Assembly: GCF_018691265.1 (NCBI RefSeq)
Contig: NW_024881283.1
Location: forward strand, 8,427,731 to 8,491,730
DNA from: Tyto alba
Taxonomy: Eukaryota; Chordata; Aves; Strigiformes; Tytonidae
Reading direction: 5' to 3'
Length of the DNA: 64,000 nt
Both the position numbers and the translations under genes were made by a program. Of the stretch, positions 3,381 through 62,347 are shown in pieces (the first letter of the stretch is position 1; each line of letters starts with the position of its first letter). Under the pieces are notes generated by a model. The model did no database searches. It had not been told where the DNA came from and saw nothing but the letters and a program-made list of their open reading frames with translations.

Positions 3381-4139
3381 AGCCACCGTGGCCAGCACAG
3401 CCCCCATGGCCACCACCACGGCCACCGCCTCCTTCACCCCCCTTCAGCCACTTCTGCTGCCACCACGGCCAGCGCCTCCGCCCCTCCTTGGCCACCACCA
3501 CCCCCCTTCCTTGGCCACCTCCACGGCCACCACCTCAAATCCTTGTCAGCCACCACTGTCACCCCTCTTTGGCCGCCATGGCCACCACCTCCGCCCCTCC
3601 TCAGCCACCACTGTGACCCCTTTTTGGCCACCTCCACGGCCACCACCTCCACCCCTCCTTGGCCACCACCACCCTTCCTTGGCCACTTCCACGGCCACCA
3701 CCTCCGCCCCTCCTCAGCCACCACTGTGACCCCTCTTTGGCCACCTCCATGGCCACCACTTCCACCCCTCCTTGGCCACCACCACCCTTCCTTGTCCACT
3801 TCCACGGCCACCACCTCCACCCCTCCTCAGCCACCACTGTGACCCCTTTTTGGCCACCTCCACGGCCACCACCCCCACTCCTCCTCAGCCAGCACCGAGA
3901 CCCTTCTTTGACCAACTCCACAGCCACCGCCCCGACCCTCCTGGGCTTCCACCGTGACCCCTCCTCGCCCACCTCCCCGGCCACCACCTCGAGCTCTCCT
4001 TGGCCACCTCCACCGCGACTCCCCCTTGGCCACCTCCGTGACCCCTCCTCACCCACCACCTCGAACCCTCCCCACCCGCCACCATCACCCCTCCTCGCCC
4101 ACCTCCCCGGCCACCACCTCGAGCTCTCCTTGGCCACCC
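3380..4139. repeat. Minisatellite, 113-bp higher-order unit, C-rich strand
   Basis: The array is built from variants of GGCCACCACC and CCCCTCCTTGGCCACC. The phrase CAGCCACCACTGTGACCCC recurs at 3602, 3715 and 3828, a constant 113-bp spacing, with a half-period copy at about 3547. Units degrade towards both ends. Because the repeat lacks stop codons, it generates long open frames on both strands (for example around 3659-4438 and 3601-4224). These are by-products of the repeat and not genes. Confidence 0.85.
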
Positions 4140-4149
4140 CCGCCGCCCC

Positions 4150-4640
4150 CCCCCCCCCGCCCCTCACCTCCTCCCTCCGTCCCGGCCGGGGAGCTGCCGC
4201 CCTTCCGCCGCCTCCGCCGGCCACGGAGCCAGCTCAGGGCCCGGCGCAGCGAACCCGCCCGGGCCTTCCTCCTCCGGGGGGGACCCGCCACCGAGGAGCC
4301 GCCGTCGCCGCCGCCGCCGCCGCCGCCTCCCGGCTCCGGCTCCCGCTCGCCGCCCGCCGCAGGTGCAGCCCCGGCGGACATGGCCGCGGCGGGCAGCGCC
4401 CCGCACCGCCCCGCACCGCCGGCAGCCGCTGCCCATAGGGCCGGGCCCGCCCGGCTCCGGCTGCAGCCCCGGCCCCGCTCCGGGCTCCCGCCGAGCGCCC
4501 GGCGCCGACGGAAAGTTTCTGCGGGGCGGGGCCGGGCTGCGGGAGGCCCCGCCCGTACCCCCCCCCCCCCTCCCGCCCGCAGGTGGCCCCGGTGGCGGCG
4601 GCGGAGGGGTGTCACCGCTCCCCTCGATGCCACCTAGGTG
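4150..4640. promoter_or_regulatory. CpG island with candidate minus-strand promoter/first exon
   Basis: A dense CpG stretch of GC-rich unique sequence directly follows the minisatellite. On the minus strand it contains an ATG in good context and a consensus splice donor (separate entry). No TATA box is seen. Confidence 0.5.
4168..4381 (-). CDS. Candidate first coding exon of a minus-strand gene, possibly NHSL3/KIAA1522-like
   Basis: On the minus strand an ATG at 4381-4379 in strong context (GCGGCCATGT) opens a 71-codon frame that ends at a good donor, GAG|GTGAGG, with GT at 4167-4166. The peptide is Gly/Pro-rich, then basic around SLRRALSWLRGRRRRRK. The position, one gene away from SYNC and diverging from it, is where human NHSL3 (KIAA1522) starts. 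That is the only reason to propose the name. Downstream exons would lie left of the window, but the plus-strand gene end at 1-132 does not sit easily with that. A non-coding CpG-island frame is the main alternative. Confidence 0.35.
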
Positions 4641-12591: not shown

Positions 12592-16650
<4,059 letters not shown>

Positions 16651-36461: not shown

Positions 36462-39114
36462 CTACCTAAGATTTGGTTTCACCTTTTCATCTACCTCATC
36501 TGGAGTATCATCATTAACATGTCGGACAACCAGATTATACGGTTCCTCCTCCATCGTCTCTTCATCTGATTTCTGTTCCTCCTCTGAAGCCCATTTGGAA
36601 CGTTTGTTTCCCATGGAGGAGACAGGAGAATGTTCTGCATCTAAGTCGTCAGGGATGCTATCAAAATTAGCTTCTGCCAGACACTTATGGCACAGTCTGT
36701 AGCGTCTCGTTCCTTGCTGAACAACACATCCTGTTAGTTCAGTTACGTGATGCTTGCATTTTCTGCAGATCAGTTTGCAAGCTTGATGTATCTAAAGAGA
36801 TTTAAAATTTGAAAATGTCAGTGTTCACCCAAAAGCAGATTTAAAAATTTTTTTTAGAAAACGAAAATTGAATTAATCATTCTAAAAAATGAAATTTAAA
36901 ACATAATTTGCCAATTTAAATAAATAATTAAGGTTGATGTGCAGCTAGGAAGCTTTTCTGGTATTAGTTCTGGAAATGACTGAACAGCTGGTACCAATGG
37001 CATCCTGTGTTTTTTTTCCTAGGCTGAATCTCCGATTGAAATGGCGTACCGTTTGGAAGTGGTTACGTAAATGCTCTAGTCGGGTGAACCTTTTCCCGCA
37101 CACTTCGCATGGGTACGGTCGCTCCCCTGTGTGACACCGAAGATGTCGCTTCAGGTCTGCGCGTCGTTTCACCGTGTGCGTACAGAAGGGGCATTTGAAT
37201 CGCATCCGAGGTAGGTCATCTGCTACAGAAAAACACAGGTAAAATGTCAAATAGCAGTAGCCTCTCTTCATGTAGTAGATTGATTATTTTTCAGCTTAGA
37301 TAAGCCATTCATTTTTCCTCTGGTCTGTCACAAATAGGAAAAATCCCATAATATAATCCCCCAAACCCAGTATTTCTCATTGAACATGCTGAACAGTCAT
37401 TTGATAGCGTATTCTTTCTTACTCAGGGTATTTTTTAGATATACAGATGATCATAAATACACAGCTGTTATATATAGTCATTGTATCTGACTCTTCCATC
37501 GGCTAACAGTTCATAGCTTTGACACTTATAATCTATGTAATATACTGGGATGCCCAAAGTCTTAAAAATATGCAATTATAATAAAATAGAGGTACATGAA
37601 TTTCCAAGGGAACGCACATAAGGATACACCTGTCAACTTTATTCCATCACCACAGGCATACGCTGTCAGTCCATCAAGAGTTTAGATGCTTTATGTAGTG
37701 TGGCCAAACAGTCATGAAGCTTGGGCTGGTTTAGACCTTAAAGGAAATGCAGCGTCCTGCCCGTGACAGGACCTCCTCTTGTGATGGACTTAGGTTGAAT
37801 GCCTCTATTGCTGCCAGGTGTTGGGGACATTACAAGAGAAATTCAGTCCTTCAGGTCCCCAAGTCAATGACAGCTCTTGAGGCTTCATTAAAGTCCACTT
37901 GGGTCCAAATAATCTGGAACGTATTGTTTTAACTTTACAGAATACCTGAGTCAAGCTCTCTGATGCTAATTCTCATGCCCTGTTCTAGCTTCAGAGTTTC
38001 TCATTCTGCTAGGCACTATAATTGAGTAGATCAAGAAAATAATCGGCAACTCTAGGCATCATTTTGGTTTTCATGCAGCCATGCAAATTCTCTCCAAAAG
38101 ATCATCTGATTCTTCCAAATAAAGACAAACTTTGCAAAAACGCATGTATTTTTTACCTTCGTTCCAACTACCCATTATACCTAAAATTGCGGGCACTGAG
38201 GTGGTCAGTTCTTCTGCCTTTAATTCCATGAACTCAGGAGTTCTTGAAAGTTCTTGTTCTAGCTGAGCAACAGTCCACCTCTTTGGTATCACTTCTGATT
38301 CGTGATTATATCTGTAATCATCATGATCAACGTTATTCTCGGCATTGAATTCATCCTCCTCTCTAACCTGAGAGATGTGGCTGGGATCCGACGCACTGCA
38401 ACCTCCGCTGGCCCGCTCAACTTTGTTCGATTTATACTGCACAAAATCACGGGTCTGTGACAGCCCGAGGTGCTTTCGGCGCTTTCTCGTTGAGGCCTGT
38501 TTTCTGCCTCTTTTCGATAGCTGTGTTTCTGCCTGCTGAAGAATCACCTGTGAGGATAGGTAGCTGCTGTAACTGCTCCAGGAATTTTCATTCACTGTAT
38601 TAGCCTTTTCTTCTGGGATTGAATAGGAACGCCTGGGGTTGCTCTTTGCTTTCCTTCTTGACCGATAAAGTGATGGACGCACAGGTTCACTGTTTGTACT
38701 TTTGGCTGAAAGGCTGAGGTAATGATCCTTCTCCTTTTCGTTAATATCCAGCGAGGACTTAATGAACGTCTTACAGACATTGAGAATATCTGTCATCTGC
38801 AGGTAGCTAGCAGCTGACATTACTTCAATCACATTTTGACCGGTTAAAGACAATATACCCGAATACACAAAGTCCAGGATAACCATAAATGTCTCTGGAG
38901 AAAAGACCTCAAAAGTAGCTATTGTTGGCTGACTCGTCTCCTTCGAGCTCTGCGAAAGGAGCATTTTGAAATAGCCACTGCTGGCAAACAGCACATTGCG
39001 ATGTGCTTTAAAGACCTTTCCCTCAACCAGGATATTGCAGTCACAGAACAAGTCTTGCTTCCGCTGTTCGTTTAGCTGCTCTAGGAGGTGAAACTGGTGG
39101 GAAGAAATCTCCAT
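36462..39114 (-). CDS. ZBTB8A-like BTB/zinc-finger paralogue (3 coding exons)
   Basis: Coding exons are 39114-38157, 37222-37050 and 36791-36462, with acceptor and donor signals at each border. They total 1461 nt, 486 aa. The first exon begins at acceptor 39144, with a 30-nt 5' UTR before the ATG. The BTB/POZ domain spans about residues 10-120 ([45 protein letters not shown]). A basic, Ser-rich linker follows. Two C2H2 fingers then start [16 protein letters not shown] and [14 protein letters not shown], and a CxxC/CxxC zinc module ([18 protein letters not shown]) precedes an acidic tail ending KPNLR. It is intact and shares the exon structure and phases of ZBTB8A 10 kb away. It is probably a nuclear DNA-binding regulator by family. 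Xenopus also has two ZBTB8A loci, so the duplication may be old. Confidence 0.92.
38934..39057 (-). other. 124-bp block identical to ZBTB8A BTB exon (conversion tract A1)
   Basis: Every base matches 48838-48961, including third codon positions. Differences resume on both sides, starting with the first base outside the block at each end. Confidence 0.9.
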
Positions 39115-39516
39115 TCCAGTCAGGGAGTAAGAGGAAGGCTTGCTCTAAAGTAAAAAACCAAGTATAATCATGACAATCTAAACCAATGTTGTTGAATCCT
39201 ATTTTAAAGATATGAGCTCGATTTTTAAAGACATGAACATCGTGTGTGTATCTCCAAACTCCCTGCAGTCCCTACCCCGCGTAATAAATAACACGAGGGA
39301 AGAAACAACTCTAGAAGAGGTGAAAAGATGTGTCAGCGGGATTCCTGCTTATCCTAAAAAATTTAAGATTACATCGACGAAGACGAGAACGGTCCACAAA
39401 CAGAGAAAAAGCCCTTGGCCCCCCCCTTCCCCCCCCCCCCCCCGCCGTGGGGAGGCCACAGCTGCCGAGAGCCGCCGCGCCTTGAGCCCCCCAGCTGTGG
39501 GCGCAGCCTGGGCCGC

Positions 39517-40563
39517 CTGCCCCGGCATTGGCGGAGGCCGCCGTCACTCAGCCGCACGCCCGACCCGATTGGTCGCTCGACCACCGGCAGCCCGGGACGC
39601 CCGACGGCGCCGGACCCGCCCGCCAAAGCGCCGAGGCGCCTCCCGGCTCCGCGGGCTGCCGCCCCCGCTCCCGCCGCCGGGACCGCAGCGCCAGCGCCCG
39701 CCAGCGCTCCGGCCGGCCCCGCGCTCCCCTCCGACGGGCCGGGAAGGGACGGGCCGGGCCGGGCGCGCAGCCCGCAGCCGCCCGCCTTAGCGGAGCCCCG
39801 GCTGCCGCTCCGCCGGCTCCGCGGGGAGCTCCCCGCCACGCTGCCGCCGCCGCCCGGTGCCGGGCGCCCGGCGTGGCCCGAGCCGCTCCCGGCCCGGCTG
39901 CCCGCAGCCTCCCCGCGCTGGCAGCGCCCCCGCCGCCCCCGTGCGCGGCCCCTCTCGCCGCGCACCCGCCGCCCGCTCCCGCGCAGCCCTTTGTTGCCGC
40001 GCCTGGCTCCTGCCAGCCGCGCCCGGGGCTGCAAATGGCGCCCGCCGAGGACGCGGTGCAGCCCCGGGAGCGAGCGGCTGCGAGGGGCGGCTGCCAGCGG
40101 GGCCGCCGCCCGCGGGCCCCGGCGCCCGCGGAGCCTGCGGAGCCCGCGGCCGTGCCTCGGTGCCCCTCGCAGCAAGGCTCGCTCCGGGGCCGTTTCCGCC
40201 CCCGAATCCCGGCGCCCTGCCTGGCCTGCCGGCGTGCGGGAGCCGCCACTCACCGGCTGGGTCCTGCGGGCGGCTGCCGCCGAGCCGAGGGGAGCGGGCG
40301 GTGGATGCGGGGTCCCGGGCCCCGCGTCGGGGCTCGCCGTGGCTGAAGGCGACGCGCCGGTCCCGCAGCCCCGAGCCCTGGAAGCCCGAACGTGAGAGAA
40401 ACAAAAGGTATTTGCTGACGTGGGCGTTGGACAGAGACGCCCGAGGGCTGGGGACACAATTAAAGGGGCAACGCACCGATTGCAGGCGCAGCCCAGCGGC
40501 TTCCTCGGCCTGATCGCCCTGCAGCCGGGGCTGCTCGCCTCTTCCCACTCCCACATGCTGCCC
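39517..40563 (-). promoter_or_regulatory. CpG-island promoter and non-coding exon 1 of the ZBTB8A-like gene, duplicated at 49518-50556
   Basis: A GC-rich island of 1047 bp lies upstream of the BTB exon. On the minus strand a donor, CCAGCCG|GTGAGT, ends a likely non-coding exon at 40254. ATTGG (CCAAT) motifs occur at 39527-39531 and 39567-39571. The whole block matches the second copy with no substitution and two indels (1 bp and 9 bp). Long open frames on both strands here are an effect of CpG richness and are not counted as genes. Confidence 0.85.
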
Positions 40564-40925
40564 GGGAGGCCCACCACCCTAACACAGACAATGCATTGCT
40601 ATTGTTAAAGGCCAATCTAGATATCTTTGTGTGTGAAAGAAAGGCGCCACCTGAATGGGAAATAACTGTAGTTTTGTGGCATGGGATATATTACATTGCT
40701 CAGTATAACAGCATTTTTATAACAGGGAAGTTTTCTGTTAAAACAATGGAAATAATCCTAATCCAAAGTACTGCAAGCAGGAATGCAATATGTCAGAATG
40801 TCTTTTTTTTCCCTTCTGTGTGGAAGGAGAAAATCAAATCAGGATGCCCATTAGAAGACAAGACACTTTCAATATTGTGCCTGTCAGAAGATGAGACAGA
40901 TTCCATCTTGTTCCTCTAGATCATT

Positions 40926-40990
40926 TTGAGAAAGAACCTCTGCAGGTCATCTGGCACAATCTCCTCAAAGCAGGCTCAGTTAGAACACAG
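40926..40990 (-). mobile_element. CR1 LINE fragment (relic, minus strand)
   Basis: The segment with AACCTCTGCAGGTCATCTGG and CTCAAAGCAGG resembles the reverse complement of the avian CR1 3' region. It starts about 360 bp beyond the duplicated CpG island. Confidence 0.6.
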
Positions 40991-43329
40991 TAAAAGAACA
41001 GTTCTCATTTGCACAGTAAAAAGTGTCAGGTTGGAGTGTGTCAGAGAGCTTCATTAGTGTTTAAGTTAGTACAACAGCTAAACCAAGACATGGAAATCTT
41101 TTTCCTGCCATTCCTCTGTTTTTCCTTTTTTTTTTTTTTTGTTCTGTGTTGCTACTATATTTAAAATTCTTGAAGCACAAAGTAAGATGTCTTTCTGCAT
41201 TTCAAGAGTTAAATCTGATCAAACATGCTAACTCCAGTGTGGGTGGTTTTCTAATTTAAACAGTATAGAAAATATTTAACTAAATTGTATTATAAGCTTT
41301 TCTAAGTTTCTTATCAAATTATACCCATCACTGAACAGACATACAGGCTGTTGGTACAGATTTATACCTAATGGGAAAATTACATTGAAAGTCTTGATGT
41401 TTATAAGATCCTTTTCTTCAAAACTCAACCTTTTGGCTGGAATTAGAGAAATTTTCTTCTATTTCTTTCTTGTATGTGTTGCCTTCCAACTAATAGTAAC
41501 CTTCTAGTTGACTTCTGACTTTCCTGAGATGTTCCAGAAAAATCAAGCAGGTGTTGGAATGCCTCTACTAAAATATTGAACTACTCTTAGAATCCTGCTG
41601 TACTTAGTCATGTAGAAACAATAAAAGGAATACAGATTTAACTCTTTGGACTCTTTTTGGATTATAATTTACATTTCTTTACCTTGCAAATGGTTAGAAG
41701 TCCCCAGTGCCACCTTGACCAGATCACTGCCTCAGCAGTCCACTGAGGTAGTTCCTTATGAATTTGTAAATTCATTAAATAAACCCTAACCATGTGTGCT
41801 TATTCCTGACTGCTGCTATCTTTAGCCTCAAGTCTTTGGTTAAAATATAATTTTAAAAAGCCTTTTTTTAGGATAAATTAAACAAGTTTAGTTTAGCTGT
41901 AATCCTCACTTAATGCAAATCTTGACTCCGCTAGCCCTCTGCAGTTAAGGCTTTCGATAGACATGAATAGATAGCACTGTTGTTATGCTGACAGATGCTA
42001 GTGATTGTCAGTGCTGGGATCTGGGCACAGTCATTGACTTGGCTGTACCCAGATGGTTGGTCAGGCATTTTTCAGCTAAATCAAGGTCCATTTAAAAAAT
42101 GCATGGGATTGAAGATAGTGCTGTTAGCCTCTGTGCAGGCTATCTGAAGTTCAAAGTTTCTGCAGACTAAGAGACCAAAATATAAGTAAGGTATACATTG
42201 GCATGGCTAGGTAATGGGATAACCTCTAATGGCGACCAGATGCTTCAGGGAAGAAATGTAGTACATTCCATAATTTTATATCCAACGTTACTTTTTTTTC
42301 TAAGTTATCACACTGAGAAATTGAGAGGGATCCCAAAATCCTGGAGGATAGAGTATTTCTTCTGAAGAGCCAGGATTAAAGGAAGGATGGTACATGTAGC
42401 AGTCAGTGTCAGTGTTCCCCTGGAGATCTTTTTACAGGTATTTTCAAAGCTCACACTCAATTGGTCTTTTTGCCTTTTTTTTTTTTTTTTTCTTTTCTCG
42501 GTTCTTTAGAACTGGAATAGAATATGTAGCAAAAGACTGGAAGGGGAGATTCATTCTGAGGTTGTTTCTTGGGGGTCTGCTTTTTTTTTAATCATTATTC
42601 ATTTTTGAAAAAAAAAAAAAACAAAACAAAACAAACCCAACAGTTGGACAAGTGTAATTTTTTGAGATAGTAAATATGGAAGTTTAGATAATTTAATGGA
42701 AAACAAAAAAAAATGGGTTATGATGTGAAGGAGAAAAACTGATCAAATATCACACAAGCCACAGGTTTATGTGACAGGTAGAGTTCTGTAAGAAATACCT
42801 GAAAAGGGGGAAAGAGAAATGTTTTTTAATTCAGTGTTTCAGCCTTTTGAAAGGATGGCAAGATCGTTGTCAGAAAATAAGGATAGTTAAAGGTGAAACA
42901 CTAGACAGAGGATGATGAATCTGTGTCTTCATTCTTGACTGTGGTTTGGTGAACACAATAAACATAAGACATGCAAAAAGAGTCAGGCTTTCAGTGTCAC
43001 ACAGAGGAAAGGACAAAGACACTAGGACTGAACAGAAAGTAGAGGTGAGCAAGAGGAACATCTCTTGAAGTGGACATCCCTCCAACGTTAGATGAAACAG
43101 GGAATGGAAATGCAAATGACAAGAGAATGATGTACTGGAAATGAGTAAATAATCAAAACGTGCATTAGGAAGTATTTAAGAGCATTCAAAGCAACATGAA
43201 GAAGATGAAAGAAGGGAAAGAAAAAAGCAAAAAACAATTTGAATCACACAACCGTTGGTCATAGGGGAACTGTGAATGTTTCTTGTCCCGCCTCCCACAG
43301 GAAGAAGGCCAGCAGCAAGATCAGCTCAT

Positions 43330-43440
43330 CATCAGCTCAGCCATGGCTTTGTGTAGCCAAGTCTTGAACGCCTTCAGGGACAAACAACTCCCAGGCTTCT
43401 TTCTGAACAGCCCGTTCCAATGCTGCACTACAGTTTAAAC
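43330..43440 (-). mobile_element. CR1 LINE fragment (relic, minus strand)
   Basis: The phrases GTCTTGAACGCCTTCAGGGA and CAGCCCGTTCCAATGCTGCA match the general pattern of the reversed avian CR1 3' end, with many substitutions. Confidence 0.6.
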
Positions 43441-45088
43441 CTCTCAAACTGTGATTTGGTGTAAGGGCAGGAGAGAAACAGAATCTGAATGGATTGGTAT
43501 TAGGAGGAGTCAATACAGTTCTATACAGCCTTCTCTAACATTCAGAGATAAAATCAGGTGTCCTACTCGTGACCTGACAAAGTTCTAAAAGCAACACATT
43601 CAAATCAGTCGTGTAAATTAAATTCTGTGGGAACAACCCTATATGGTCTTAACTTTCCTCCTTGAAAAGAAAGAAAATGTTACTTTTGCTAATGAGTGGT
43701 ACATGATCCTACCAGAAGCATGAAGAAGATAGTCATCAGAGGCAATGCAAGAAGATGAAAAGAAAACAAAAACAAATGGGATTACTTTCAGGTAGAGAAA
43801 AACAAGCAAAATATATGACTGTCTATGTGAAATGAAGGACGTAGAAAATAGAAGGCACTTAACATTTATCTTGTCTTGCAATACAAAAATAAGGGAACAA
43901 CAACTGAAATTAAGGTAACAGATGTAAAATTGGTAACCTTTTTAAAATACAAACCATAACTGACTTGTGGGAATGGCAGTTTTGAGCTAAAACTCCAAGC
44001 TTAATAAGATACTTTAAAAATCACTATAGATACCTAGTTATGCTACTGAGAATAACAATATCATATAAAAACAGTAGAAACCCTTATTTGCCAGGCAAAT
44101 CAACAATTAATCTGCCTATATTTAAAAAGTAAACGTATTCATACGGATAGATTATTCCATTTGCCCATTTATAGCCACTTCACATCTTTTTTTGAAGCAT
44201 CTGGTCCTCTGTATTCTTAGTTTATGGTATCTAATTAGATTGAGTATTGATCCCAAAATCCTTTTGCTTCTAAAAATGCCCCCAAGTATACAGAAACACT
44301 TATTAGTCTCACCTTTAGAGTTGGCAGTTAAGACTTCAGGCCTAGAGTGACACTTTATTTTCCCCTCCCTTTAATCCATCCCCAAACACACACACAGACT
44401 AATCCCAGTCACTTTATATTCTGGGGCAGCAGGCACTGATACCCAGAATTTATTGCGCATACTGTTTAATGTAAAGGGAAACGGAAAAATCTGTTAGACT
44501 TGATTTCAGCAAGCATTTTCTCTTGAAATTTGACTGAAGTAATTCCATATTCTTTTCAATATTTCTTTGTTCTGTATCTGATTTAAAGTTGCTCAGGAAT
44601 ATTTCTTAGCTATTTAGTTATACGCATTTCAGGAGTAATAAGCTCCAAGAAATTAACCAGTTGTTCTCACATCAAGTCCATTTTATGGACTGCTGACCAA
44701 AGTGTAACATAAAATCAAGGCAAGTGTAAGTCTTGTTTGGAAAAGATGTTTTCATATGGGTCATCAGAAAGTTTTGTAAGTTCCCCCTTTCCATCTCCCT
44801 CCCCAACTCTAAGCCAACGGACAATAATTTTTGTAGGAATAACAAAATACCACTTCTCGCCTCCTCAGAACATACAAGCACTGGCACATTTGAGGGGAAG
44901 CGCGCTCAATGTTTACACTGTGAACTTAGTAGGAAGTTCTTGAGTTGTCATTTCAGCTGGCCGTCTGCAGCCTGGAAATAAAATGCTGCACTCTCTGGTA
45001 ATGATAATACTAAGAAGGCTATACAGTTTTTACACAAATAAAAATAAAATAATGACTTTTTAGCTGTCCCTGGGAAATAGATTATATA

Positions 45089-45119
45089 GTGTGTGTATGT
45101 ATATATATATATATATATG
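45089..45119. repeat. TG/TA dinucleotide microsatellite
   Basis: A short GTGTGTATG stretch followed by about nine perfect TA units. Confidence 0.85.
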
Positions 45120-46681
45120 GGATTGTTCTGTAATTAATCCCGGGTTTCAGCCAAACATGCTTACAAAGTTGTAAAAAAGAAAAAAAATAAAAGTTTTCTA
45201 AGCCTATAGCCATTGAGTTCAATGATCACAGGATGAAGACTGTAGTAATACTCAGATCTGTCCAAGAAAATTCAGAGTGAAAGCCCTCAGAAGCATACTT
45301 CTGCTCCTCTCCTGTTTACAGTGCTGGTCAAGATAAACTCACTAAGTAACAAAACAAAGTGGCTTATTTTGTTATAGAAGTAAACTTTCTTGACCATTAG
45401 TCATTTCATCTCTTGTAGTATGATTGTAGGTAAAATTACACAAATAAGATGTCTAGAACTTCCAGTACATCTTGTTTTCACTGGCATATAGTAAAGACTG
45501 AAAAAGGTTAAAGTATGTTCACTTAGTGACCAAAAGACTTTGGGAATATATAAATTGGCGACTCCATCTTAAAACTCATCAGTTTAAATTGAGTACAGGT
45601 CAATACAAACAAGAATAGTCAATGGTTTCAGATGGAAAATCTCATCAGTTCCATTTCTAATGATATAGCATATATACTGTACAAATTGTTCTGCCACTGT
45701 TATTGGCAAGTAAAAAGGGGGACAAAGAGAGAAAACAACAGCTAAGGTAACCTTGTAAGGATTGTTTCCTTCACCTTGGCATGGAGAACTGCCACTGCCA
45801 TTGGCAATGCTGTGGATGCAGGGCTACCAGTCCTGTCAGTCTGGCACTTTTGAGAGGTTTTAAAAAAAAGAGTATTTTACTAGCAGTTATTAAAACACAG
45901 CCCAGTCTGAGTTCCCAATCTTCAGAATGAATAAAACGTCTGGCAGCAATTAATGATCCATATTTGTCATCACTTTATCTCTGATGTGTTGACTAGGACT
46001 AGCATTCATGTGTTTATTTTCTTGTAAAGAAATAGGTCTTGAAGGAATAATATGCTAAAGATTCTCCTTATTCTATATTGTACAAGAAAGTACTTTTCCA
46101 GACAAAAGTGCTAAAACATTTTTACATTTTTCTTAATTAGCTGCCTTTTTTCCTCATCATAACATAAAGACTTCACGAAATTTTGTGGAAGATTATCTTC
46201 ATTTCTGAATACTGAAGAGAAGTTTTCTTTATATTCTGACATGTGGGGCATTTATACTTTGTTTATCGCCAGATGATATTATGTATAAACCCCACATCGC
46301 TACAAGTTTAAAAAGTGGGCAATTTACAGCGCTGTGTGACCTTTTTTTTTTTTTTTTAAGTATTTAGACCTCAATCCCTTAAAAGAGGTTTTGAGAAGTG
46401 ACCCATTGTCTACTATAAAAAGTTACTCATGTAGTACTTCAGTTTCCTTGTTCATCCATTATTTCATTTAAGGATGGAATTTTTCTAGTGAAGCAAAGTA
46501 TGGGTATTCTGATAACAAAACTCAGAATGGCCTCAATGGCATGTCCATAAATACATGCAAGTCTGGACCTGTTCAAGAGAAACCAGTGTCTCTGTACGAT
46601 TAACAACAGGCTGGTGGAGGGCTTATGTTCAAAACAGTACATTCTCCCTCTTATACAGAATTCCCAATTCTTGTCTTGCAA

Positions 46682-49018
46682 CTACCTAATATTTGGTTTT
46701 ACTTCCTTTTCATCTGCTTCATCCTCACTGTCATCAACTTGCTGAATGACCAAGTCAGTTGACCCATCCTCCACAATCTCCACATCAGATCTGTTGTCTT
46801 CCCCATAGTGCCACCTGGAATCCTTATCCCCATCTTGTGGAAATTCAAGGGGTGCTTCAGCCTCCAAGTCAATGCGAATACTGTCTATGCCAGCTTCAGC
46901 CAAACATTCATTACAGAGTCTGTAACGTCTTGTCCCCTCTTGGACCACTTGTCCTGTTAGCTCAGTCACGTGGCGTTTACACTTTCTGCAGATAGGCTTA
47001 CAAGCCTGATGAATCTGAAAAAAATCAAAATTAATAAATTTGATAATGTATCCAAAAAGAAGCATTTTTTAAGATGACAAAAAGTAGGGCTGGAGTAGCA
47101 TTAAGTGGATGCGTTAACTCATTTTAAGAGATAGTCAAACGTTAAAAATTAAACCATCAGGCACTGTAATTGCCCACTTAAGCTCTGTTACAGGACTTGC
47201 ATAGAGCAGTACATTTGTGAACAATCAATTAACAAAGAAATTCATCCCCTTTCATACAAATTATGCCTCAAATTGACTTCAACAAAACCAAATTCATTTT
47301 CTATTACCTCTTCTTTACGGGAGTCAGTATATTAACCAGGTACACTTGTACTGTGTTTAATTGCATGGAGACAGGTTACACATTAAAGAAATCATGCAGT
47401 TACTAAAAATACATACTGTTCGAAAATGGCTACTTAGGTGATCTAGCCTGCTAAATCTTTTCCCACATGCCTCACAAGGGTAAGGGCGCTCTCCCGTATG
47501 ACAGCGAAGGTGACGCTTTAGGTCTGCTTTTCGTTTCACCACGTGAGTGCAGAATGGGCACTTGAACCTCATCCTGGGCAGATCATCTGTTAGAAAATAA
47601 TGTGATTAAAAAAATTGAGTCATAACATGTCTAGTCATGTAATGCTCTAGAAAAAGGCATTCTATGAGCAGAATGCAAATTGCTTTTATTAAAAAAAGTA
47701 ATATCACAGGTTTTTCAAGCACAAAAATCTTGTTTTTTCCTGTAAATTACACAGGAGCGTAACAAAGGAAAAGGAGTGGACCGTTAGCTATATTAAAATG
47801 AGCTTAAATATATCACAGAAGATCACAACTTAAATTTGCAAGATGAAGCTGTAGAAACACTAGAGATTATGTATTTTGACAGGCTAGTTTTAATAAACCA
47901 GGTACTTCAGTAATTCAAAATTATTTAAAAATAGTTAAACTTTCCAAACTTACATATCTGGACAATGCAGATGTCTTTTTGGCAACTGTACACTCGTTCA
48001 GTAAAGTACATTTTATCACAGACAGAACAGACAATTCACAGATGACTCTGCACCTACAGCATTAAAATCAACTCTTACCTTCAGCCCAGTTTCCCATGAC
48101 ACCCAGAATCGAGGGCATGCTCGCGTACTGCTCGTCTGCTTTTGAAGACTTTGATTTATTAGAAGAACGGGGTGATTCGTGCTCCTGCTGTGGCACAGCC
48201 AAGCTCCTCGGTATCACGTCAGACCCTGGGCCGTACTGGTACCCCACGTGAGGAGATTCAACTTCTGTTTCAATCTGAACTTGCTCCTCAGACTGAGCAA
48301 TGTGGCCAGTGGGCTCGGCAGCCCTGTCCTCCAGTTTGCTCGATTTATAGTGAGGAATGTCAGAAGGTTGCTGCAGTCCCAGGTGCCGGGATTTCTTTAT
48401 GGAATCCTGCCTCTGCTCGTGTTTGGACAGCTGCTGCTGGGCATTTCTTTGAGAAGTGGGATAGTAGCTGAAATTGCTCCAAGTGTTTCCACCCATCATA
48501 CATGTCCCTTGGTCTGGGCTTAAGTGCGAATGCGGGGGGCTGCTTTCTGCCCTCCAGCCAGCGCCGTACAAGCAGGATCGGTCCACGCCATTTGAATTTA
48601 CATCTTTGTCTGAGAGACTGAAGTAGCGATCCTTCTCCTTCTCACTGATGTCCAGCGATGACTTAATGAATGTTTTACACACGCTAATAACATCGGTCAT
48701 CTGCAAATAGCTAGCAGCTGACATGACTTCGATGACATTCTGACCCGTGAGAGACAGTTTGCCTGAATACACAAAATCTAGAATAACTGTAAATGTGTCA
48801 GGAGAAAATGCCTGGAAAGTAGCTGTCGTCGGCTGAGTCGTCTCCTTCGAGCTCTGCGAAAGGAGCATTTTGAAATAGCCACTGCTGGCAAACAGCACAT
48901 TGCGATGTGCTTTAAAGACCTTTCCCTCAACCAGGATATTGCAGTCACAGAACAAGTCTTGTCTGCGCTGCTCGTTTAGTTGCTGCAAGAGGTGAAACTG
49001 GTGAGAAGAAATCTCCAT
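46682..49018 (-). CDS. ZBTB8A: Zinc finger and BTB domain-containing protein 8A (3 coding exons)
   Basis: Coding exons are 49018-48079, 47586-47417 and 47014-46682, with GT..AG borders and compatible phases. They total 1443 nt, 480 aa. The first coding exon starts at acceptor 49046. The BTB domain is at about residues 10-120, followed by a Ser/Gln-rich linker ending [11 protein letters not shown]. Two C2H2 fingers start [16 protein letters not shown] and [15 protein letters not shown] CxxC/CxxC module ([25 protein letters not shown]) and an acidic tail ([28 protein letters not shown]) end in KPNIR. The C-terminal half is very close to human ZBTB8A, so this copy is taken as the orthologue. It is likely a nuclear transcriptional regulator by family; targets are not known to me. 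Confidence 0.95.
48838..48961 (-). other. ZBTB8A: 124-bp block identical to the ZBTB8A-like BTB exon (conversion tract A2)
   Basis: Perfect match to 38934-39057. It encodes the part of the BTB domain from CDCNILVEG to SQSSKET. Confidence 0.9.
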
Positions 49019-49517
49019 TCCAGAAAAGATGAAATGAAGCGTCGTTCTAAAAAATAAAGAAAATAGCTAGACTCTTGACTTCAGCATCGTGCAACTCAGC
49101 CAAAGATGTCAGGCCCAATTTCATGGATAGCTTTACAAATACTCTCATTTATTTAAATCCATAAAGATATTGAAATATGCACACGCATACATTCTTTTTC
49201 CAAGAAGAAAAGTGATGAAAAAGCCAAATCGGTGCACATTCTTTGGCAGAGACGTGTGTGCTACAGCCAGGCGCATCTCCTTCCGAAGGATGCGGGACAG
49301 GATGTGTGCCACCCGCTGGCAGCTGCACAGCCCTCAGACCTCCTCCAACGAGACCAGGAGCCCTCCGGCCGCTGCGGGTACGGACTGTGGCCGTGCCTTG
49401 AACCGACGTTCCCGCATCGCCCCGCTCCGGCCGGGCTCAAACCGCCGCCGCCGCCGAAGGGACCAGAAATGGGACTCGGCGACACAGCCCCGGCGGCCGC
49501 AGCCCTCCCGGCCCGGG

Positions 49518-50556
49518 CTGCCCCGGCATTGGCGGAGGCCGCCGTCACTCAGCCGCACGCCCGACCCGATTGGTCGCTCGACCACCGGCAGCCCGGGACG
49601 CCCGACGGCGCCGGACCCGCCCGCCAAAGCGCCGAGGCGCCTCCCGGCTCCGCGGGCTGCCGCCCCCGCTCCCGCCGCCGGGACCGCAGCGCCAGCGCCC
49701 GCCAGCGCTCCGGCCGGCCCCGCGCTCCCCTCCGACGGGCCGGGAAGGGACGGGCCGGGCCGGGCGCGCAGCCCGCAGCCGCCCGCCTTAGCGGAGCCCC
49801 GGCTGCCGCTCCGCCGGCTCCGCGGGGAGCTCCCCGCCACGCTGCCGCCGCCGCCCGGTGCCGGGCGCCCGGCGTGGCCCGAGCCGCTCCCGGCCCGGCT
49901 GCCCGCAGCCTCCCCGCGCTGGCAGCGCCCCCCGCCGCCCCCGTGCGCGGCCCCTCTCGCCGCGCACCCGCCGCCCGCTCCCGCGCAGCCCTTTGTTGCC
50001 GCGCCTGGCTCCTGCCAGCCGCGCCCGGGGCTGCAAATGGCGCCCGCCGAGGACGCGGTGCAGCCCCGGGAGCGAGCGGCTGCGAGGGGCGGCTGCCAGC
50101 GGGGCCGCCGCCCGCGGGCCCCGGCGCCCGCGGAGCCCGCGGCCGTGCCTCGGTGCCCCTCGCAGCAAGGCTCGCTCCGGGGCCGTTTCCGCCCCCGAAT
50201 CCCGGCGCCCTGCCTGGCCTGCCGGCGTGCGGGAGCCGCCACTCACCGGCTGGGTCCTGCGGGCGGCTGCCGCCGAGCCGAGGGGAGCGGGCGGTGGATG
50301 CGGGGTCCCGGGCCCCGCGTCGGGGCTCGCCGTGGCTGAAGGCGACGCGCCGGTCCCGCAGCCCCGAGCCCTGGAAGCCCGAACGTGAGAGAAACAAAAG
50401 GTATTTGCTGACGTGGGCGTTGGACAGAGACGCCCGAGGGCTGGGGACACAATTAAAGGGGCAACGCACCGATTGCAGGCGCAGCCCAGCGGCTTCCTCG
50501 GCCTGATCGCCCTGCAGCCGGGGCTGCTCGCCTCTTCCCACTCCCACATGCTGCCC
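49518..50556 (-). promoter_or_regulatory. ZBTB8A: CpG-island promoter and non-coding exon 1 of ZBTB8A, duplicate of 39517-40563
   Basis: A 1039-bp copy of the ZBTB8A-like promoter island. The equivalent donor GTGAGT ends the likely exon 1 at 50247. Compared with the other copy there is one extra C near 49932 and one 9-bp unit fewer near 50132. Sequence to the left (49230-49517) is GC-rich but unrelated to the corresponding flank of the other copy. Confidence 0.85.
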
Positions 50557-53500
50557 AGGCGGGGATGTGATGCCCTAGATGCTTCCTTCTCACACCTTTA
50601 TGTATAGCAGGGTCCTTGATGACCCAAATCCTTCTTTAACGCGCCTACAGCTTCCCCAGAATGAGATGTAACATTTTTTTTTTCTGTTCATATCTGTTAT
50701 CTTCTGAAAAAAAAAAAAAAAAAAAAAAGTGTGAAATCCTAGTACCTGAACCTCTCACATTCTCTTTCCCAAAGTTTGGCATCTTTCTTCTTCCTCTTCT
50801 TGCCACCAGGGTCTTTTCTGTGCTCCTGACACCCCAGTTATTTCTCATTAATACTTGTTTTCCCATGGGAGTCACTGTGCCTTAACTGTATCCTTTGTGT
50901 GTTTTTTAGCCCTTCCTTCCATAAACTTAAGACTTTCTTTCCTGAAACAATTTACGTTCCTTTCCCCACCATAGCATCTAAAGACTCTTTCGTCTGATAG
51001 TTAGAAAGTATCACAGTATAACATATACATATATTTGATTTATATCTGCTTATATTGTAACAGTATTTTTCACCAGCTTAATTTCTCCTTTTAAATAGAC
51101 ATCCATAGTTTTGTAAGTTCAGTCTCCTTTCAAATGTAGGCCACGCTTTCAAAATCTTTCATGAGAGCCATTCTGCTTGCTTAAGACTCCTCTCTGCACC
51201 TGACCAGCTTAAATTAATCATTCTTGAACATGAAAATGATTGGAATTTACACAGTATTTCTCATTAATCTTTTCAGTCCACCGGGCAATGGTGTTAATTA
51301 TCAACTGAAAACATTGTAATATTACATACCTACAACAGGCCAGCCCTTTCCAGCCATGCCACATTGTCAGTCTGTCATCATCATCTGATCAGTGTCACCT
51401 GCAAATTTCATGTAATTTTTCTTGGTTTTAGATCAAAGTCTAAAGAGTATATTTGCAGAACTGATTCCAAAGTCAGCCCAGAGGACCATTAGCATCTTTG
51501 TCCTCGTTGTTCTCCTTCCAGGGTATGGCCACCCAACCCTAGCACCCAGCTTCTCACAGCTCTTTATTAATTAATAGCGTACACCTGCAAGTCAAATACT
51601 GTATGCAGCCCCAGTGTTGCTCATTTCAAAGAGTGTCTACAGGAGCCTGTAATGGGTCAAGGAGAGAAAAGAGAAATGATAAAAGTCTGGCACAGCTTTG
51701 TACAGAATGTCAGTAGAGCGAGAGATGCCTGAGCTAGGAAAAAAAGATGAAGCAGGTGAGATAAATGGAAATCTATAAAATCATGAGATGATCAATAGGG
51801 ACTGATTGCTCACTGCTTATTCCAGCACAAGAGGAAGCCGATAGCAATGGGAGGTGGCAGGGTCAGAGCAACCAAGAGGATGTGGTTCTTTGCCCAGCAT
51901 GCAGCTGCACACTGGCACTGTGTGGCATAGGCTGTGGGGGGCAAGAAATGTTTGTGAGTGTCACAGGGCTACAGTAGTCACGGTCATGAGAGAGACTTGA
52001 GAGCTGCATACAGAAATGTTCGGTGACTTCCAAAGACCCAAGTCACAAATTGTAGGAGACTGGAAGAGCATTCAGGTAACAATATTACTTGTCATATTCT
52101 TCCATGGAGCAACTGATTTTGACTCAAAAATCTCAAGTTGGGGAATTTCATAGAATTTAGTTTATTGCCAACTAACAAACTTTCAACTACTGACTCTGGT
52201 ATTGAAAAATAAAGACAACAAACAACTAAACAATCACTTAGATTGTTTAATATAAACCAGAAAGTTTATATGCAGTATCAGGTTTTAATACTGCTTGAAT
52301 TAATTCCTCTAAAGTTTGATTTTGCTTCTCAGTTCAACTAAGTAGCACCTCTTTTATGTAACATTCTACATATTTTCTCAGATCCATGCCCAAATCATTT
52401 CATCTGCTGAAAACTTCCTTTTGAAAAGAACTATTTGTAGGAATTTGCTCTGTCTGACTTTGCTGACTTTTCAGGTAATTGATACTTTCACTTGTATACC
52501 AGAGTGCTCTGCTTGGTAGTTTGTATCGATATTAATAGGACCTCAAGGGTTCTCTATCTGCTAGGAACAGGTAATAGAATTTGAAAAGTAGAAAAAAAAA
52601 ATGCAGTGGTATCTAGAGCAGCTTAATTTGAATTTTTAAAGGTGTTGCAAGTGCTTTACTCAGAGTCCTTCAGCAACCTTGCTCACGAGTTTGCGCAGTG
52701 CAGCTAGGAATGACCATGGAACAGACCTTGTTTTTTTCATACATAAGGACTGATTTTGTCCTGTTTTGCACAATAATACATCACAAACAATCCACTGATT
52801 CCACAACTTTTATTTGTTTAATCTAGTTTTTTTGGTTTGTATTTCTAAATTTTAGAGTTACTGCTTCTAGCCAAGAAAGTTCCACTTGAAGTTGAGATAT
52901 TGTTTGGAGAGTTTATTCAATGGGAATAAACTTGGCAGCTATGTGGAAGAAGTGCTTCTCAGAGCGACAGAAGGAGTGTTGCAAAGCAAGACTAACAGTC
53001 TGCTTTTCAGAGAACAATTTACAAATTACTTTAAAAAAATGACATTGTTAGTGCTGATACAAAAATTAATAATATAAAATTTGCATTGTCTTATTTGGAT
53101 TTTGGTAACTAAATATAATTAACAGTTAACACCAGTTAATTGTTTTCAGTTTTCCCTAAAATATATTTTTCTCAAAGATCACAGACTTCAGTTATGGTAT
53201 ATTTTCTGACTTTAAATATATAGTGATATTTCTTGCAAAGAAAACTCGAGAGCATATACTAGAACAACTGAAGTACCATAGGTCAAAGACTGACATGCAT
53301 TGATTCACAAGATTAATTTGTTGCAATGGATTTTTCCCAAATACGTAAGTAAAGTAATATGCATTTACCAAGAGTTTTATTTAAAATTTTTTAAATGTAA
53401 GTAAACTTGCATATAACCTAGCTAAAACAACACAATTTCTTTCCTTTTTGTAACACTGAAGAAATAGCTGCATTTTTTTTCTGCTGGATCAGAAATGTAG

Positions 53501-61359: not shown

Positions 61360-62347
61360 CTACATAAGTGTTTCTCGGTCTGATAAACTCCTGTGGATTT
61401 CCTGCTTGTCATCACCATCAGCATCATCATCATCAGCTGGATCATTTTCCTCTCCAGACTCCACATATATGGGCCAATCGTTATCGGCATCACCTTTCTC
61501 TTGGCCTTCTGATGAAGGTTCCATTAGGCTGAGGTTAATGGGCATCGAGTCCTCATGGGTAGTGGTCACGCAGGTGCAGCTGTCACACAAGCCAAAGCGT
61601 CGTAATCCTTGAGACAGGCTACTTGTGAATGTTCTCCTGCAACCTTTACAGATAATTGGCTTGTTTGATCGATGCACCTGAAGTTAAAAATAAAACACTA
61701 TGGTAAAAAAGGCAATTTGCCTTCTTGCCTTAGCTCTTTCTGGGGTGCTGGTTTGCATGTATTCACAGAACAGAAAAACATCTAAGCTAAAGGACAGATG
61801 ATCCCATCACACTTCCAGTGACAAAGATTTGGGGCTACGTATGTACTCATGAACCAAGTATCAGTGACTTAAACTTACTATTAGAAAAGTTTATCTCACA
61901 TTGGCAACAATCATTTTGTCCAACATATTTTGGGAAATATGATCAAGAAATGCCAAAAACTTTTAAAAATTTCCTGATAATTTTTCAAACTTACACTTAA
62001 AGCATGACTCCGAAGGTGTTCCTGCCGAGTGAAACGTTTCCCACACGTCTCACAGGGGTAAGGTCTCTCACCTGTGTGAGAGCGAATATGCCGTTTTAGT
62101 ATTCCTTTCTGTTTAGCCGTGTAGGGACAGAACGGACATTTGTGAAGCTTGATTGGCACAACTAATACATCACCTTTTGGAAAAAAAACACAATGCATTA
62201 GAGTATGCAGTTCACCAGTGTTACCTATGTTGGTTTCTTATCCTTCTTGCTGCAAATCTGAGTCAAGACAATTCCACTTTCCCCTCTCTGCATTTCGCTT
62301 ACCTGGAATTTCTGTAGGTTGTGCGATTTCAGGAGACATTAATGCAG
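61360..62347 (-). CDS. ZBTB8B: Zinc finger and BTB domain-containing protein 8B, 3' part (partial gene)
   Basis: Three minus-strand coding exons are seen: 62347-62303 (45 nt, [14 protein letters not shown]), 62173-61995 and 61677-61360, with stop TAG at 61362-61360. Two C2H2 fingers start [16 protein letters not shown] and [14 protein letters not shown]. They are followed by the ZBTB8B-type zinc module [20 protein letters not shown] and LCDSCTC. An acidic tail with [16 protein letters not shown] ends DRETLM. The Cys/His ligands are intact. The BTB exon is not found to 64000 and must lie to the right. The small 45-nt exon joins in the same phase (1) as the BTB exons of the ZBTB8A genes. The acceptor of that small exon is weak, so it is the least certain border. 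Confidence 0.92.

Follow-up and report, generated by a model that had tools for sequence, protein, structure and literature searches.

In the barn owl Tyto alba, two tandem ZBTB8A genes found in the window (the whole 64,000-nucleotide stretch of DNA analyzed here) are preceded by CpG islands that do not differ by a single substitution, and we consider it likely that interlocus gene conversion recently copied one of these islands over the other. The conversion reading gains support from a second conversion-like tract in a coding exon and from flanks that are old and locus-specific elsewhere. Recent conversion of the promoter and 5' UTR was the original prediction for this locus. On the strength of the tract in the BTB exon and the old locus-specific flanks, it stands as the best-supported explanation in all but its view of promoter age, which is discussed below.

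Gene structure and the shared CpG islands

The two genes (Table 1) are both encoded on the minus strand, and both have introns with GT donors and AG acceptors and unbroken reading frames. The predicted products are 485 aa (gene A) and 480 aa (gene B). Pfam analysis identified a BTB domain in both genes, with C2H2 finger models scoring slightly below their curated cut-offs. The gene A protein is 100% identical over its full length to Tyto alba ZBTB8A isoform X2 (P0001). P0001 continues for 48 C-terminal residues past the predicted end of gene A, which suggests that this gene has a further 3' exon. Across all aligned codons, the coding sequences of A and B show an identity of 0.69 by base and 0.65 by residue. 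Because the P0001 model begins in the translated island, with 101 residues joined at the donor at 40253 to exon 2, the island is the predicted exon 1 of the gene and, by inference, its promoter.

Table 1. Coordinates of features of the ZBTB8A gene pair in the window
Feature	Position	Strand	Remarks
CpG island copy A, identical tract	39517..40563 (1,047 bp)		Intron-side end 39517, upstream end 40563; pairwise alignment with copy B
CpG island copy B, identical tract	49518..50556 (1,039 bp)		Pairwise alignment with copy A
Predicted non-coding exon 1 of gene A, within tract	40254..40563	-	Donor GT beginning at 40253; used in P0001 for splicing to exon 2
Predicted exon 1 of gene B, within tract	50247..50556	-	Donor GT beginning at 50246; P0122 and P0124 (turtle gene B models) use the homologous exon
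Second identical tract, gene A	38934..39057	-	Codons 20-60 of BTB exon; 124 bp identical
Second identical tract, gene B	48838..48961	-	124 bp identical to 38934..39057
Gene A coding exon with BTB domain	38157..39114	-	
Gene A zinc-finger exon	37050..37219	-	
Gene A last coding exon	36462..36791	-	
Gene B coding exon with BTB domain	48079..49018	-	
Gene B zinc-finger exon	47417..47586	-	
Gene B last coding exon	46682..47014	-	
A-specific upstream flank, old	40602..40687		Match of Phalacrocorax gene A model
B-specific upstream flank, old	50562..50604		Match of Chrysemys gene B model
B-specific intron-side flank, old	49406..49517		Two matched pieces, 49406-49441 and 49477-49516

Pairwise alignment of the two islands gave 0 substitutions in 1,038 aligned bases. 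Only two differences in length were found: copy B has one extra C at 49928 (in a run of six, compared with five in copy A), and copy A has one additional 9-bp unit (40128-40136) that is missing from copy B. This agrees with the earlier description of a stretch of about 1.04 kb free of substitutions. The tract is a CpG island by composition, with a GC content of 0.80, a CpG observed/expected ratio of 0.98 and 164 and 163 CpGs in the two copies. The islands are 10 kb apart and constitute the strongest repeat in a self-comparison of the window.

The match between the copies breaks off at the first outside base on the left and past 40563/50556 on the right. Local alignment of the intron-side sequences (39150-39516 and 49070-49517) gave a score of 20, compared with a maximum of 26 in 60 shuffles, and alignment of the first kilobase upstream gave 27, compared with a null maximum of 29; neither pair shows similarity. 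When 3 kb upstream of each copy was compared, the sole excess over shuffles (50 versus 35) was a poly-T stretch. The abrupt end of homology on both sides, which had also been claimed previously, is thus borne out by the alignment limits and the shuffle tests.

Identity of this kind could also arise as an assembly artefact, if one island had been placed twice or if assembly or a gap-filling step had overwritten a diverged island with the other. The literature already discusses false duplications and losses in the GC-rich portions of bird sequence, a region with a GC content of 80% is hard to sequence, and the two differences observed here (the length of a C run and one 9-bp repeat unit) resemble allelic or sequencing differences. 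Against this, single HiFi-type reads are usually much longer than 1 kb, and the window is without any N and retains runs of 38 C and 32 A. A barn owl reference is described, in the part of the report used here, as the product of PacBio HiFi sequencing (PMC10810427), and the window presumably originates from that assembly; with a HiFi reference and no N in the window, an artefact extending over 1 kb is unlikely. Furthermore, no island assembly error is needed for the identical tract in the BTB exon, and the tested flanks and both promoter exons are present in other species, as described below.

The BTB-exon tract and the age of the gene pair

The coding exons of A and B were previously described as strongly diverged. 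This is true in general, with the exception of a 124-bp block in the BTB exon that is identical in the two genes. Among 118 degenerate codons that encode the same residue in A and B, none of the 39 inside this block differ, compared with 33 of the 79 outside it, and a difference-free codon run of this kind was reproduced in 0 of 200,000 permutations. Synonymous divergence between A and B (NG86 dS) is 0 in codons 20-60, 1.42 in codons 1-19 and 1.44 in codons 62-140, and is saturated in the linker, the finger exon and the last exon. Between the block and the island lie 459 bp in gene A and 556 bp in gene B, most of this being unalignable intron. Such a mosaic is the pattern that conversion leaves behind. 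Both the island tract and the BTB tract exhibit sharply limited near-identity within far more diverged paralogues, as is expected for interlocus conversion. The 124-bp tract cannot be dated because it is too short.

A recent tandem duplication of the genes themselves is ruled out, since synonymous sites beyond the two tracts are highly diverged or saturated. A maximum-likelihood tree was constructed from the part of the protein behind the BTB domain, using 16 proteins, of which 15 came from the 137 fetched and one, owl B, was taken from the window. This tree separates 12 bird A proteins and that of the turtle Emydura from owl B and the proteins of the turtles Chrysemys and Trachemys with a support of 100/100, a value from a midpoint-rooted tree whose bootstrap had not fully settled. 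Because turtles fall on both sides of the tree, the A/B duplication is placed before the turtle-bird split, and by the same topology the paralogues are older than the identity of the tracts.

Homologues of the island exon were identified by protein searches with the translated islands, in which scoring was confined to the approximately 8,000 candidates with the most words in common. These gave at least 12 and at least 14 matches, corresponding to at least 21 distinct proteins including the owl's own. Among named gene models, with each locus called from the coding part of the model, the island exon precedes gene A in Falco, Colius, Phalacrocorax, Rhynochetos and Emydura and gene B in Chrysemys and Trachemys. 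Since homologous island exons precede both A and B in turtles and other birds, the gene models indicate that the promoter pair is ancient and that only its sequence identity is young. The original prediction of promoters much younger than their genes therefore holds for the sequence identity, but not for the promoters themselves, whose exons precede A in some of these species and B in others. The kagu ZBTB8A-like protein (P0125, Rhynochetos jubatus, labeled as low quality) has diverged strongly, its BTB domain included, yet its island exon core is conserved. An exact scan for island words (25 bases in genome_contigs and 22 bases in viral_contigs) gave no match; these collections are without bird genomes by design and the result carries little weight.

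Flanks and islands in other birds and turtles

To compare the sequences abutting the island, proteins were turned into degenerate DNA and aligned to the owl flanks. Seventeen proteins were tested in this manner and seven were retested with 40 shuffles; several start inside the tract and are uninformative with respect to the flanks. On the upstream side, the Phalacrocorax gene A model scored 75.0 on the owl A flank (null maximum 21.2, reached in 0 of 40 shuffles) and 13.7 on the B flank, while the Chrysemys gene B model scored 48.4 on the owl B flank (null maximum 24.2, 0 of 40) and 15.9 on the A flank. On the intron side, the owl B flank matched chicken P0127 (35.7, null maximum 22.9), the contig protein P0129 (37.3, null maximum 22.3) and chicken-like P0126 (28.3, null maximum 25.4), with 0 of 40 shuffles as high in each case.

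Other comparisons were less clear. The upstream side of chicken P0127 scored 21.3 on the owl B flank, which is not significant (4 of 40 shuffles were as high), and the owl A intron-side flank had no convincing counterpart among the 17 proteins. The last 17-21 bases of P0121 exceeded the shuffles on both owl loci and thus favour neither. The upstream flank of Zonotrichia P0136 appears A-like by eye, with a marginal score of 21.3 against a null maximum of 20.3. In P0134, from a contig of 1,996 bases, the upstream flank is A-like (45.0, null maximum 30.1, 0 of 40) but the start of exon 2 is B-like (13 of 15 residues); this protein might be a reptile gene A, a product of unequal crossover or a chimaeric contig. 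The tested flanks are sorted by locus in four named or chicken cases, and P0134 fails to follow this pattern. On balance, the tract appears to be common to both loci, while the sequence abutting it appears old and mostly locus-specific. This combination argues against both an insertion and a misplaced copy.

An insertion, in which a 1-kb piece carrying the island landed in the other gene independently of homology (a small segmental duplication, for instance), would account for abrupt ends on both sides and for unrelated non-coding surroundings. We nevertheless consider it highly improbable for four reasons. First, the copy occupies the corresponding place in the paralogue: the donor lies 310 bp from the upstream tract end in both genes, and intron 1 is 1,109 bp in one and 1,200 bp in the other. 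Second, a homologous island exon is already found at both genes in other species. Third, the upstream junctions look old. Fourth, the BTB tract would be left unexplained.

Extreme purifying selection, keeping two old islands identical with no exchange between them, is an explanation to which we assign next to no probability. An approximately 100-bp core of exon 1 is indeed conserved at both loci from turtles to birds. Outside this core, the island changes between birds: comparison of P0129 with the owl island gave 76 incompatible columns of 922 and 67 gap columns (with only part of the changes visible through protein), the best local segment between the chicken and owl islands is 174 bases, and whole-island matches to other birds show approximately 37-53% residue identity. 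The islands of other birds differ by both substitutions and indels. Selection alone is therefore insufficient to explain zero differences over 1 kb.

Clustering of the islands was compared using inferred DNA for 17 of the 20 island-bearing proteins from other sources (all except chicken-like P0123, P0130 and P0133). The Emydura (turtle A) and the Chrysemys and Trachemys (turtle B) islands gave no clear signal of grouping by species or by locus. Two pairs of proteins have closely similar islands. P0126 and chicken P0127 share 1,035 compatible columns with one incompatible column and one gap, followed by unrelated tails, and P0121 and P0132 share 757 columns with three incompatible and no gap, followed by tails that match weakly (21.2 versus a null maximum of 18.4). 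In each pair, a second island may be joined to another intron, although chimaeric contigs could give the same appearance. The pairs possibly represent islands A and B, in chicken and in another bird; neither pair is counted as evidence here.

Probable gene conversion in CpG islands of a lineage without PRDM9

The observation of 0 changes in 1,038 bases places the divergence of the two islands below 0.29% (95%). At the bird rates used for dating, 1.2-3 x 10^-9 per site and year, the identity would date to about 0.5-1.2 million years or less, provided that the tract evolves at rates typical of birds.

We propose the following course of events. An ancient tandem duplication would have carried the promoter along, with an upstream breakpoint that we place near the upstream edge of the island, and the two islands would have stayed similar enough to recombine. 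Double-strand breaks, falling preferentially in the CpG islands of PRDM9-less birds, would sometimes be mended with the paralogous island as template. Such repair would overwrite the homologous block and, on occasion, part of the BTB exon; the introns and most of the coding sequence would be too diverged to pair and thus free to drift. The prediction is that both transcription factors share a single core promoter. The sharp ends of the tract are consistent with replacement of the block from edge to edge, and the old duplication breakpoint probably forms its upstream edge.

To our knowledge, PRDM9 is absent from birds. In the zebra finch, which lacks this gene, crossovers and non-crossovers overlap CpG islands above chance and the mean non-crossover tract is approximately 32 bp, according to the portion of the study consulted (PMC12047795). 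The owl pair is similar in that the islands supply a likely source of breaks; it differs in that the zebra finch events are allelic recombination in pedigrees, whereas the owl tract joins paralogous islands and is far longer. With a mean of this size, a 1-kb tract would require one long event or several overlapping ones. The length of the zebra finch tracts thus counts against conversion, as do P0134, the non-significant upstream result for chicken P0127 and the owl A intron-side flank without a counterpart. A broader proposal, which we put forward only tentatively and regard as rather doubtful, is that paralogous CpG-island promoters in birds lacking PRDM9 are standing recombination hotspots, so that this promoter pair has been evolving in concert since before the turtle-bird split, with one control region shared by two transcription factors while most of the rest diverged. 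If the hotspot reading is true, other tandem bird paralogues with island promoters should behave alike.

Conversion of this kind is already known, since homogenization of 5' UTRs and upstream regions has been described for the mammalian BEX/WEX/GASP genes (Winter and Ponting 2005, PMC1274310). In the part of that report used here, as in the owl, linked genes carry young, nearly shared and GC-enriched 5' regions above older, dissimilar coding sequence; in the ZBTB8A pair, the homogenized part is likewise the predicted exon 1 and 5' region, and the coding parts are diverged. The mammalian case involves a short 5' UTR motif in several X-linked gene families, whereas the owl case involves one tandem bird pair in which a whole 1-kb CpG island and a patch of the BTB exon are affected. 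In the tandem HMA4 genes of Arabidopsis halleri, ectopic gene conversion likewise patches the array segment by segment (PMC3749932). There, as far as the consulted portion of the paper describes, the coding sequence was homogenized and the promoters fall into copy-specific groups under selection, whereas in the owl pair it is mainly the promoter that was homogenized. A search of an open-access library found no paper that mentions both ZBTB8A and gene conversion. The ZBTB8A pair thus adds an unusually clean new case to a known kind, and does so in a lineage that lacks PRDM9.

Regulation is commonly expected to diverge early between duplicate genes. In the ZBTB8A pair, the predicted control region would have been rewritten to identity while the proteins parted. 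If this is true in other birds, it would connect CpG-island breaks that occur without PRDM9 to prolonged co-regulation among tandem paralogues. A further caution is that read mapping, expression assignment and dating can be misled when paralogues in birds have identical promoters.

The window contains further features beside the A and B genes. ZBTB8B-like zinc-finger and last exons are located at 61360-62237 on the minus strand, and the window therefore contains a ZBTB8 cluster in tandem. A long open frame on the plus strand (12592-14025) includes tandem repeats of a GIPLDVDA-like unit at 12888-13198; based on gene order, this gene is probably SYNC. Several diverged copies (67-79% identical) make up a GC-rich minisatellite at 3383-4155.
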